DNA of 64,000 nt, taken from positions 1,121,001 through 1,185,000 of the forward strand of contig NC_014221.1 in the NCBI RefSeq assembly GCF_000092425.1, in the 5' to 3' direction. Below the pieces are notes generated by a model. It worked only from the letters and a program-made list of their open reading frames with translations. It had not been told where the DNA came from and searched no databases. Origin of the DNA: Truepera radiovictrix DSM 17093 (GTDB taxonomy: Bacteria; Deinococcota; Deinococci; Deinococcales; Trueperaceae). Position numbers and translations under genes: made by a program. Below are positions 53,367-57,236 of the stretch, piece after piece. Each line of letters begins with the position of its first letter. The stretch's first letter is position 1.

Positions 53367-53420
53367 TAGAAAACCCCGCTGCACCACGAAGCACCCTTTA
53401 AGATCGCTTACAATCGAGTT

Positions 53421-55130
53421 ATGAACCGCAGTAACGTTACCCTTCAGCGGCTACGCGAGCTGTACGTGGAGGGTGAAAACGACGTTATTGTGAAGCTCCT
53501 GACGGCCAAGCGAACCCTGACCCCACGGGAGAGCGTCTACCTCGTGTCGGCGTTTATCAATATCGATAACGACGCCGCTGCCATTCGCTATATCAACGAG
53601 GCGCTGCCTCGAGCCGAGGGGGCGGACAAGGCCGACCTGATCGCCTTAAGCGCTCTTATCGCCTCCGTCAGGGGTGACGAAGACGGTTATTTGCGGCTCT
53701 CCAGGGAGGCGGTGGCGGTTCATGCCACGCCGCTCGCGCTGCATCACCTCGGTCTGGCGCTCCCCGATGTGCGCGAAGGCATCCGCATCCTTCAAGGGGC
53801 TCTGCGCGCGGCCGAAGAGGCGGCTGACGCCTATGCAGAGGCGCGTAGCGCCTACGCCCTCGCCCTCTCGTACCTGCGCATCGGCAGCTTTCGAGAATCG
53901 CTCGGCTGGTCGCACTTCGCCTACACGCGCACCGCGCACCCCGTTTTGAGGCTCGTGGTCCTCAACCTGCGCGCTTACACAAAAATTCTCGTCGAGTCTA
54001 CAGAGGGGCTCGAGGCGCTCCTCAAGGGGACGCTCGACGCGACGGAAAAGACCGCCTACGCCTTTCAGCGAAGGCAGACCCTGACGACGCTCGCCGACCT
54101 CTACCAAGCACAAGGGCGTTACAAAGAGGCACTTGCGCTCTACGAAACCGCGCTAGAGCAGGCGCCGCGCCACCTCTGGGCGATGCTCACTTACGGATGC
54201 GTCAAAGCGCTCCGTGCGCTCGGCCGCCAAAGAGAGGCCGAGGAGCTTGCTGAGACAGCCGTCTCGGTGACCCGAAACTTAGCTTTGTACTACCAAGACT
54301 ACGCTATGTTGGTGTTGGGCGTGTCGCGCTGGCCCTCTGAGGCGGGCGTTCGCTTGTTGGATGAGGTGTATCCGAGGTTGAGTGACATCGTGCTCACGTC
54401 CGAGGCGACGTTCTATCTCGCGGCAGCGGAACAGCTGGGCATGAAGCTGCAAAGAAGCTATGTCGCGCTGGCGCGAGAGCTGCGGCGGCCCCTCACCACG
54501 ACGGGGTTGCGGCTCCTCGCGGGAGAGGCCCTGCCTTACCTCGAGCCGCTATTTGTGGAGGAGCATGCGCTGCGCGTGCACGTTTTAGGTACCTTGGAGG
54601 TCTACCAGCGGGGCAACTTCGTGCGGGTGCGGCAGCGCACCGCAGAGCTGCTCGCACTCCTCCTGCAAGAACCGCGGGGCTACACCGCCGAGGCGCTCAG
54701 CGAAGCGCTCTACGGCACCCTGCAGCTCTCGGCGCTGAGAGTCGAGCTGCACCGCCTCCGCAAAGACCTCGGGCTGACGGTTCACACCCAACCCTACCGC
54801 TTGGGGACGCCGTTGTGGGCGGACGTACTCGAGGTCGGCCAAGCCCTTAATGAGGGGCGCGTCAAAGACGCCGTCGCCCTCTACCGCGGTCCGCTGTTGC
54901 CCACTTCGACCTCTCCGGGGATTACCGAGCTGCGCCGCGGGCTCGAGGCCGAACTCCAGGGGGCGGTGCTCGCCGCGGAGGACGTAGAGCTGTTGTGGTC
55001 GCTCGCGCAGATCATGCCCTACGACCTCGAGCTGTGGGAGGCGCTCAGGGAGAGGCTCCCCAAAAACGACCCTCGCCGCAAGGTGGCGGCGGGTAGAAGC
55101 ACGCGCGTTCGGCACGAGCTCGAGCTTTGA
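53421..55130 (+). CDS. TPR-domain transcriptional regulator with SARP-like C terminus
   Basis: A 569-residue protein. Residues ~20-370 form TPR-like helical repeats (clearest at QRRQTLTTLADLYQAQGRYKEALALYETALEQAP). From ~382 a winged helix of the OmpR/SARP type follows (LRVHVLGTLEVYQRGNFVRV, then RQRTAELLALLLQEPRG and LRVELHRLRKDLG), then a BTAD-like helical segment (about 465-530, GRVKDAVALYRGPLLP, ELRRGLEAELQ). SARPs have this DNA-binding plus BTAD pair at the N terminus; here it is C-terminal with a TPR sensor in front. TACAAT 6 nt before ATG: leaderless. It faces a tiny secreted-peptide gene tail to tail, next to a phased operator array. Confidence 0.85.
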   Translation: MNRSNVTLQRLRELYVEGENDVIVKLLTAKRTLTPRESVYLVSAFINIDNDAAAIRYINEALPRAEGADKADLIALSALIASVRGDEDGYLRLSREAVAVHATPLALHHLGLALPDVREGIRILQGALRAAEEAADAYAEARSAYALALSYLRIGSFRESLGWSHFAYTRTAHPVLRLVVLNLRAYTKILVESTEGLEALLKGTLDATEKTAYAFQRRQTLTTLADLYQAQGRYKEALALYETALEQAPRHLWAMLTYGCVKALRALGRQREAEELAETAVSVTRNLALYYQDYAMLVLGVSRWPSEAGVRLLDEVYPRLSDIVLTSEATFYLAAAEQLGMKLQRSYVALARELRRPLTTTGLRLLAGEALPYLEPLFVEEHALRVHVLGTLEVYQRGNFVRVRQRTAELLALLLQEPRGYTAEALSEALYGTLQLSALRVELHRLRKDLGLTVHTQPYRLGTPLWADVLEVGQALNEGRVKDAVALYRGPLLPTSTSPGITELRRGLEAELQGAVLAAEDVELLWSLAQIMPYDLELWEALRERLPKNDPRRKVAAGRSTRVRHELEL

Positions 55131-55131
55131 C

Positions 55132-55266
55132 TCACCTCAGCAGGGCGTCTTGAATAGGGTTTGGGCACGCGACTCTTCCCGAACCTTTGACCGTCCCGTT
55201 GGCCAAGGCGCCAGCACTGCTGACGACGAGAAAGAGCACCACGGCCCACCGTCGCACATTCCGCAT
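55132..55266 (-). CDS. Small secreted peptide precursor
   Basis: A 44-codon gene. The product starts MRNVRRWAVVLFLVVSSAGA and has a classical signal peptide, with likely cleavage after ALA (residue 22), leaving ~22 residues: NGTVKGSGRVACPNPIQDAL then LR, with one cysteine. ATG 55266 has GGGAGG 8 nt upstream, and TACGCT (55294-55289) is a suitable -10 box 16 nt further up, giving a short normal leader. Four GGTAAC-like repeats on 11-bp spacing lie immediately upstream of that box. The stop lies 1 nt from the regulator's stop. No homologue is known to me; a signal or regulator-controlled peptide is inferred. Confidence 0.6.
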   Translation of the reverse strand: MRNVRRWAVVLFLVVSSAGALANGTVKGSGRVACPNPIQDALLR

Positions 55267-55304
55267 CCCCACATCCTCCCTGCTTTGCAGCGTATGAGGA
55301 CCAC

Positions 55305-55379
55305 GTTACCCGCGCGTTACCTCGGCGTTACCTGCGCGTTACTGGTCTGATCCTGCCCCTCGGGTAAGGGGGAGGTAAT
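55305..55379. promoter_or_regulatory. Phased GTTACC operator array
   Basis: GTTACC occurs at 55305, 55316 and 55327 and GTTACT at 55338, exactly 11 bp apart. Opposite-strand copies GGTAAG at 55363 and GGTAAT at 55374 are also 11 bp apart. Read on the minus strand, the last repeat ends 10 nt before the -10 box of the small peptide gene. Direct repeats on 11-bp spacing just ahead of a -10 box are the known layout of SARP-regulated promoters, matching the SARP-like regulator next door. Confidence 0.7.
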
Positions 55380-55586: not shown

Positions 55587-57236
55587 ATGCGGTTGAAGTG
55601 GGAGTCACTTGCGAGAGCGGTTTTTTGGACTATTGGAGTGCTGGTTCTGAATGCGTGTAGTAGCGGAATTCAACAAGATCCACCTGCCGGCGAACCGGGC
55701 CTTGAACTCTCAACTCAGGCAGCTACTTCTCATAACGTCCCCAACTCGGCAAGCGACGCAGAAGAATGGAACGGCGTGACCTACACTATGAGCCCTGTTT
55801 TGGAACTTGGTTACAAGGACCAGTCAACTGGGCTTGCACAGACGACGGGGGTGCGTTTTAGTGGAGTCAGCATACCGCGAGGGGCCACGATAACCTCTGC
55901 TTACATCGACTTCACAGCCGTAACTAGCCAGTCAGATGCGACCTCGCTGCGGATCCATGGCCAAAATGTCGGTAGCGGCGGACCGTTTGTGGAGGGTGCG
56001 AGTAACGGCGTCACGGGACGCGTGAAGACCTCCAACAGTGTCACCTGGTCACCGGAGCCCTGGACTGGTGGTTTCAAGTACTCTACCCCAAACCTTGCCC
56101 CCATAGTCAGAGAAATCACTAGCCGGTCAGACTGGGTTCAAGGGGCAGCGATGGTCTTCATCATTAAAGGTACGGGGCAGCGCAAAGCTCACGCGTTTGA
56201 TGCTGGCAACAACTTGCAGCCTGTGTTAAGAGTGACTTACCAAACCTCATTGCGCACCTGTTTGCCAAGTAAACCAACTGAAGTGCTGAGCGGAGTGTAC
56301 AATTCTAGCCTCAAACGTACGGGTAATGGCGAGACTGCCTTAAGCATCAATGCGGTCAGTGCTAAAATTGCTCCTGTATTTACAGAGCTTGGCCCTTTAG
56401 CAAGGTTGCGGTACTACAAATCGCTTTGCTTGAGCGGCGGGGTCTATACGCTTAATGAGGCGGCGGATCCTGAAGTCAAAGGAGATGACTCAAGCTGGGA
56501 AAAAGTCTTTCACCGAGGCACTGTGGGCGTGGAGTTCTGGGATTCACCGAGCACCGTGATCGAGCAGGTCGCAATAGAACTGTCTGGTGATGGCATCTCG
56601 CCACGAGGTTACAAAAACCATAACTGGTTGATTCGAGACTCTTACATTAGACACGCGGGCGATGATGGTGTTGAGAACGATTGGATGACGTCCGGAACCA
56701 TCGACGGCGTACTTATTGATTGGGCCTATACAGGCATTTCCTGTAGAGCTGGTGAGAGCCAAAGGAACGACTTGTCCAGTATCACCCCCGGTACGATAAC
56801 GATCAAAAATAGCCTCATCCGCCTTAGGAAACAGAAGTGGGGTTACAATAACGCAACTAATTTGCACAATCATTTGTTCAAGTGGGAACAGGATCAACCG
56901 GATAAAGGCTACGTCGCCAAGAAGGGGTGTAAGTTAAGGCTCATAAACAACGTGTTTATGGTCGACCAGAATGCGGGTTATTTGGATCCAGCTCAAAATC
57001 CCAAAGTCAACTATGGGCAGGTGCTCGTCGAAAGTAGCAACAACATCCTGATTTGGAGTGGACCAGAAAGCGCTTTGCCGAATAGTTATAAACAAGCCAA
57101 TCTACCGTCGGGTTTTACGCTCAAAATGGGATCTGAAGGCGCAAGCATTTGGAACACGCGTCGTAACCAGTGGTTTGATTACTACAAGCAGTTCGGCCTC
57201 TTCCAGAATTACAGAACGTTTCAAAAGCTCTATTAG
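55587..57236 (+). CDS. Secreted lipoprotein with beta-rich N domain and right-handed beta-helix-like C domain
   Basis: A 549-residue protein with a lipobox (VLNACSS, Cys24), so anchored after export. Residues ~50-230 resemble the DNRLRE-like beta domains of surface proteins (IPRGATITSAYIDFTA, IKGTGQRKAHAFDAG, LQPVLRVTYQ). The second half (about 290-500) has repetitive strands (WLIRDSYIRHAGDDGVENDW, GVLIDWAYTGISC) as in pectate-lyase-like beta helices; carbohydrate binding or cleavage is a guess. GC is clearly lower than the genome, as is its upstream region from about 55440, suggesting transfer. GAAAGAGAGG precedes ATG. Confidence 0.7.
   Translation: MRLKWESLARAVFWTIGVLVLNACSSGIQQDPPAGEPGLELSTQAATSHNVPNSASDAEEWNGVTYTMSPVLELGYKDQSTGLAQTTGVRFSGVSIPRGATITSAYIDFTAVTSQSDATSLRIHGQNVGSGGPFVEGASNGVTGRVKTSNSVTWSPEPWTGGFKYSTPNLAPIVREITSRSDWVQGAAMVFIIKGTGQRKAHAFDAGNNLQPVLRVTYQTSLRTCLPSKPTEVLSGVYNSSLKRTGNGETALSINAVSAKIAPVFTELGPLARLRYYKSLCLSGGVYTLNEAADPEVKGDDSSWEKVFHRGTVGVEFWDSPSTVIEQVAIELSGDGISPRGYKNHNWLIRDSYIRHAGDDGVENDWMTSGTIDGVLIDWAYTGISCRAGESQRNDLSSITPGTITIKNSLIRLRKQKWGYNNATNLHNHLFKWEQDQPDKGYVAKKGCKLRLINNVFMVDQNAGYLDPAQNPKVNYGQVLVESSNNILIWSGPESALPNSYKQANLPSGFTLKMGSEGASIWNTRRNQWFDYYKQFGLFQNYRTFQKLY

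Follow-up and report, generated by a model that had tools for sequence, protein, structure and literature searches.

In the RRNPP literature that we searched, the systems described for peptide quorum sensing through cytoplasmic receptors come from Bacillota and their mobile elements, and the RRNPPA surveys searched mention neither Deinococcota nor Thermus, SARP or BTAD. The Rgg/SHP systems of streptococci drive operons encoding radical SAM enzymes and exporters, known as RaS-RiPP clusters (PMC13361665). For SARP regulators, the rule drawn from the AfsR literature is that the repeats lie at 11 or 22 bp and that the last stands 8 bp from the −10 (PMC10936776). Here we analysed a locus in a 64-kb stretch of DNA (the window), positions 1,121,001–1,185,000 on the single 3,260,398-bp contig of a Truepera-like genome.

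Rgg group III, with its convergent, overlapping SHP genes, appears to be the closest functional analogue, given a TPR regulator and a short exported-peptide gene that is convergent with the regulator gene and overlaps its 3′ end. However, Rgg proteins have an N-terminal Xre-type HTH where the regulators described here have a C-terminal OmpR/SARP module, SHPs are short and hydrophobic whereas Thermaceae peptides combine a Sec-type signal with an ACxxPxCxPP core, and Rgg/SHP systems belong to Bacillota rather than to the diderm Deinococcota. As in RaS-RiPP clusters, a radical SAM enzyme and an exporter stand beside the pair in many Thermaceae relatives, but they are absent at the window locus. 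NprR, PlcR, Rap and AimR share a TPR solenoid of similar size (about 325 residues aligned, Z 21–24, for a model to which MalT and APPBP2 align equally well) and an adjacent small secreted propeptide, and differ in the type and position of the DNA-binding domain and in phylum. Of the traits of the RRNPP(A) group, the adjacent small propeptide with an export signal is present, as the locus counts and dN/dS values below indicate, and the N-terminal Xre/HTH_3-type domain (itself absent in Rap) is lacking in the window regulator. With the SARP proteins AfsR, DnrI and EmbR the locus shares the fold, a wHTH followed by a BTA domain (AfsR and EmbR align over the whole 190-aa module), and direct repeats spaced by 11 bp near the −10. 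Unlike in these proteins, the module is C-terminal instead of N-terminal, the BTA domain is shortened from the full seven helices, there is no NOD/ATPase domain, the repeat core is GTWAC and a secreted-peptide gene lies downstream. The DNA-binding domain sets the system outside RRNPP, and domain order sets it outside the canonical SARP family, which leaves the claim of Rgg-like working unaffected.

An earlier note, made from the letters of this DNA, had suggested that the combination of these elements with reversed domain order would be new in a Deinococcota-like genome. The combination has no prior description in the open-access literature searched, but the reversed order alone is not new, since GAF-SARP proteins of actinobacteria (Nocardia, Streptomyces) also carry a C-terminal SARP module, with about 40% identity over aa 383–559. 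In these proteins GAF replaces TPR, and a tail-to-tail signal-peptide ORF was found at 1 of 46 relatives, nearly all actinobacterial.

Regulator, peptide gene and operator in the window

The features of the locus, in window coordinates, are:

53409–53414, forward strand: TACAAT, −10-like, just upstream of the regulator start (sequence; similar −10-like hexamers in relatives)
53421–55130, forward strand: TPR-SARP regulator gene, 569 aa (ORF; Pfam TPR; Deinococcota relatives; AlphaFold2 model)
53421–54554, forward strand: TPR solenoid, aa 1–378, proposed sensor part (model; VIA-align)
53431–53440, no strand assigned: GTAACGTTAC, an inverted pair of the operator core in regulator codons 4–7 (sole copy in the 3.26-Mb genome)
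54558–55127, forward strand: C-terminal SARP module (aa 380–569) with an OmpR-type wHTH and a shortened BTA (model; Foldseek; VIA-align)
55132–55266, reverse strand: convergent gene of 44 codons from ATG, whose 44-aa product bears a signal peptide (ORF; like genes beside homologous regulators)
55135–55200, reverse strand: predicted mature peptide NGTVKGSGRVACPNPIQDALLR (read from sequence)
55201–55266, reverse strand: predicted Sec signal peptide MRNVRRWAVVLFLVVSSAGALA with an AxA cleavage site (read from sequence)
55275–55281, reverse strand: AGGGAGG, ribosome-binding-like site (sequence)
55289–55294, reverse strand: TACGCT, a TAnnnT −10-like element 10 bp past the last GTAAC (sequence; N10 also in the paralogous circuit)
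55305–55342, reverse strand: operator with GTAAC four times (within GGTAAC in three units and within AGTAAC in one) at 11-bp spacing (repeat and genome scans)

Three elements of the earlier note were borne out here, namely a 569-aa TPR regulator with a C-terminal SARP-type pair, a tail-to-tail 44-codon signal-peptide gene beside it, and repeats with exact 11-bp spacing upstream of that gene's −10. For the regulator, the evidence is Pfam for the TPR part (TPR_12 at 4.6e-12) and structure for the wHTH and BTA. Trans_reg_C and BTAD both gave no Pfam match in the window protein, and across the family Trans_reg_C was matched in 8 of 33 members and BTAD weakly in 3 of 33. Given that Pfam and NCBIfam scans left the C-terminal module unnamed, as they did the peptide, its assignment required structure.

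The AlphaFold2 model of the full-length regulator, built on an alignment of 34 relatives (mean pLDDT 93.4, pTM 0.70), consists of about 20 TPR-solenoid helices, then a winged helix, then a helical tail. Modelled separately, the C-terminal 190 aa (pLDDT 96.5) matched AfsR (3.6e-8) and EmbR (3.5e-6) over the whole length at the top of the Foldseek list, and VIA-align gave Z 14.6 for AfsR (188 aligned) and Z 12.3 for EmbR, whereas generic OmpR-type domains aligned over only about 80 residues with Z 9.2 or less. After the wHTH the module has about six helices in about 105 aa, compared with about 150 aa in AfsR. The assignment to a SARP-type DNA-binding and RNA-polymerase-contact module (wHTH plus BTA), weak from sequence models alone, holds at model level, and so does the RRNPP-like reading of the TPR part, which aligned to NprR with Z 23.6 (325 aligned, rmsd 4.4) and to Rap Phi3T with 23.1 and AimR with 21.6. 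Since APPBP2 (Z 23.9) and MalT domain III (22.7) align to it as well as NprR does, the modelled fold is compatible with peptide sensing but does not prove it, its likeness to RRNPP sensors being non-specific.

From TACAAT, and from comparable −10-like hexamers immediately 5′ of the regulator start codon in relatives, we infer a leaderless-type promoter for the regulator gene. The site GTAACGTTAC within the gene is a possible autoregulatory site, to which we give little weight because, although unique in the genome, it is not conserved among relatives.

The product of the peptide ORF reads MRNVRRWAVVLFLVVSSAGALA|NGTVKGSGRVACPNPIQDALLR, and its stop codon lies 1 bp from that of the regulator. 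Around the predicted cleavage site (ALA|NGTVKGSGRVACPNPIQDALLR), the window peptide keeps only ACxxP of the Thermaceae core ACxxPxCxPP, and no ortholog of it was found. On the peptide strand, the GTAAC units stand at 55342–55338, 55331–55327, 55320–55316 and 55309–55305, a pitch of exactly 11 bp, and the distance from the last repeat to the −10 is 10 bp from GTAAC or 8 bp with the unit taken as GTAACGT, as in the SARP rule. Chance origin of this operator was ruled out by shuffling and by scans of the window and the genome: when the 300-bp region was dinucleotide-shuffled 20,000 times, no shuffle had a four-copy run of any 5-mer at 11 bp and two had a three-copy run, the rest of the 64-kb window held no other 5-mer three times at 11 bp, and the window operator is the sole site of three GTTAC at 11 bp in the 3.26-Mb genome. 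The outward direction lacks a −10-like element at the distance where one would be expected, and the gene that comes next encodes a lipoprotein, which leaves the peptide gene as the only clear operator target at the window locus. Nothing relevant was found beyond the operator, at 55342–55379. The putative lipoprotein downstream of the operator, at window positions 55587–57236, has weak beta-helix similarity.

A second circuit and the pair in other genomes

The earlier note had also proposed scanning the genome for operator units at 11-bp spacing. A scan with a tolerant pattern over 3.26 Mb, in which annotation was not used, recovered a second operator, GGTCACacctcGGTAACgctccGGCAAC, i.e., GGTCAC-GGTAAC-GGCAAC at 11 bp, about 580 bp beyond the stop of a paralogous 816-aa TPR-SARP regulator. 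Ten bp later follows TAGAGT and then a 39-aa signal-peptide gene, MVKKIVTLGLICLSLSTFAFARPGNGGGDVCRTSVSSTR:

L008:700–1890 (G000:C1 about 1461700–1462892): second regulator–operator–secreted-peptide set, with the paralogous 816-aa regulator (genome scan)

This second circuit is the strongest single evidence tying regulator class, operator geometry and peptide gene together. Exact matches to GGNAAC-N5-GGNAAC-N10-TANNNT occur at just two places in the 3.26 Mb, the window and paralog operators, and a generic search over 886 kb for three 11-bp repeats, a −10 and a signal-peptide ORF returned the same two sites only. The genome has two such circuits, and their strongest operators precede peptide genes only. 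A third candidate at G000:C1:816972, with one mismatch, is followed by no signal-peptide gene and was dismissed as chance. Two further SARP genes were seen in this genome: the ORF at L009:2234–3598 (G000:C1 about 1099233–1100597), which is followed by another ABC ATPase gene, has its SARP module behind an ABC ATPase domain, an unusual fusion, and L010:2964–4355 is a family member with a GAF-like N-terminal half (by eye) before the SARP module.

Regulator homologs were present in 69 of the 101 relatives. A contig search with the window protein alone had returned no relatives, an alignment-based search did recover them, and no viral contig had one. We distinguished a short class (485–665 aa, complete members scoring about 500 bits and above on the short-regulator profile, the window regulator 541) from a long class (about 816–880 aa, at most 307 bits on the same profile). 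By one fixed automatic criterion applied at every locus, a tail-to-tail signal-peptide ORF was found at 30 of 40 short-class loci, 9 of 23 long-class loci and 0 of 9 more distant members, compared with 4 of 192 other genes of those loci as controls; these counts are non-independent because the homologs are related, and on a quick tree the peptide label required about 9 changes versus 25 with shuffled labels. A conserved peptide frame, on whose presence the earlier note had made its reading depend, lies beside most of the homologous regulators. Some of the ten short-class loci that failed the automatic test have a degenerate, truncated or differently positioned frame. In L124, the closest relative of the window regulator at 40% identity, GTTAC repeats stand at 11 bp with no peptide gene visible there, and the operon includes an MFS transporter. 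At the short-class locus L052 (G092:C21), the reading frame of the regulator C terminus runs on into the ATPase end of an ABC exporter, as would result from a deletion of peptide gene and operator.

Carriers include Meiothermus granaticius, M. luteus, Calidithermus roseus, Thermus caliditerrae, T. arciformis, T. composti, T. igniterrae and T. parvatiensis, as well as two T. thermophilus plasmids, pTHTHE1601 and pTTJL1802; on these plasmids the regulator is annotated as a hypothetical protein and the peptide gene is unlisted (the gene table is incomplete). A long-class member occurs in Deinococcus sp. KNUC1210, where a 53-aa hypothetical peptide is annotated and where a lantibiotic dehydratase and a radical SAM gene are also present.

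Beyond the overlap with the regulator, dN/dS was 0.43 in the peptide frame versus 1.01 and 1.07 in the other frames for the Meiothermus-type loci (a starting set of nine, less identical copies), and 0.37 versus 0.88 and 2.00 for the seven Thermus-type loci, which have few substitutions. These ratios indicate that both types of peptide frame are under purifying selection, and the reading of the Thermaceae frames as spurious ORFs was discarded on this ground. A core ACxxP[DNQ]Cx[PS]P is common to Thermus, Meiothermus, one Truepera MAG and one Thermaceae MAG, with predicted AxA cleavage directly before it (AYA|CTRPDCLPPG, ALA|CWDPNCVPPA, TYA|CKSPDCLPPS).

Upstream of the relatives' peptide genes stand GTWAC operators spaced at 10–11, 19 or 20–22 bp, the GTAAC/GTTAC of the Meiothermus type at 20–22 bp and those of the Thermus type at 10–11 and 19 bp. 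Long-class loci with a peptide have no GTWAC operator, except for the window's own paralog. Thermaceae have GTWAC-N11-hexamer in both divergent promoters, the outward one being GTWACCTN6TGCTANNNT, which occurs 15 times in 9 of 12 Thermaceae genomes (reversed control, 0). Several more of its occurrences stand before operons for MFS or ABC exporters, or before an orphan peptide gene:

L135 (G104:C1:2927384–2927509): orphan peptide gene, its regulator reduced to a remnant, with a radical SAM gene and with GTTAC promoters in divergent orientation (operator-pattern scan)

Radical SAM/SPASM enzymes are encoded in the divergent operons of relatives, together with MFS and ABC exporters and a C39-like protein, and short precursor-like ORFs also occur there. 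A conserved precursor-like ORF with a CPCGxGI tail, possibly a modified-peptide precursor, precedes the genes of an uncharacterised protein and of an ABC transporter at L048:2896–3189 and L073:5246–5548.

Signal, effector or transcript

Given that Thermus, Meiothermus and relatives show the same arrangement, often next to genes for the production and export of modified peptides, it looks like an undescribed peptide-signalling system. We consider it somewhat probable that the locus is a two-gene peptide-signalling circuit that works like Rgg group III/SHP with an unrelated DNA-binding module, the regulator presumably sensing the peptide. In such a circuit, the regulator would bind the GTAAC repeats side by side and activate the peptide promoter and, in relatives, also the divergent radical SAM/exporter operon. 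The peptide would leave via Sec, be trimmed and re-enter the cytoplasm, possibly via an Opp-type importer; the window's genome encodes 12 Opp-type binding proteins, none of them linked to the peptide, so uptake is possible in principle. The re-imported peptide would then bind the concave face of the TPR solenoid and change the activity of the SARP module. In Thermus and Meiothermus, this autoinducing loop would switch on the production and export of RiPP-like peptides at high cell density.

The peptide could instead be an effector, either an antimicrobial or a substrate of neighbouring radical SAM enzymes, with the TPR part sensing something else and the locus amounting to an activator and its target. 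The radical SAM enzymes and exporters in divergent operons and the conserved Cys residues of the Thermaceae peptides would suit this, as would the long-class loci L083, L120, L126, L030, L032 and L033, where the peptide gene comes directly after a radical SAM gene in the same orientation, which suggests a single operon, so that the peptide could be the enzyme's substrate there. However, no modification gene is adjacent to the peptide gene of the window or of its paralog, MFS, ABC or C39-like operons beside a peptide gene also exist without an adjacent radical SAM gene, and separate precursor-like short ORFs are present in the clusters L048, L073 and L083. The peptide also bears a Sec-type signal instead of a RiPP-type leader, and its gene is tied to the 3′ end of the regulator. 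We regard an effector role as unlikely, though still a credible contender.

It is doubtful, to a marked degree, that the peptide is a ligand acting as an antagonist or inside the producer, i.e., Phr/Rap-like inhibition or a timer, rather than a quorum signal. While Rap-Phr is among the top fold matches and a negative feedback loop fits the operator and peptide promoter equally well, production and export operons under a matching promoter architecture suit positive feedback better. Very improbable, in our view, is that the short transcript is an antisense RNA on the regulator mRNA with an incidental reading frame: the 3′ ends converge and overlap or abut in many loci, but purifying selection acts in the peptide frame only, outside the overlap, the paralogous peptide gene shares the strand of its regulator at a distance of about 640 bp and does not overlap it, and the orphan peptide gene and operator persist with a regulator remnant only.

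Beyond the signalling circuit proposed for the window, chances seem evenly balanced that these loci represent a secreted-peptide signalling family in diderm Deinococcota (Thermus, Meiothermus, Calidithermus, Truepera relatives, Deinococcus), in which TPR sensors on SARP modules, apparently of RRNPP-independent origin, exert density-sensing control of the production and export of modified peptides. Most of the small peptide genes are unlisted in the annotated records that we checked, which may be why the system has been overlooked so far. In a diderm phylum, the pairing of a TPR-SARP regulator with a Sec-exported peptide, under a promoter code that can be read from sequence, would broaden the RRNPP picture, and would offer a handle on silent modified-peptide clusters of thermophiles as well as a thermostable signalling part.
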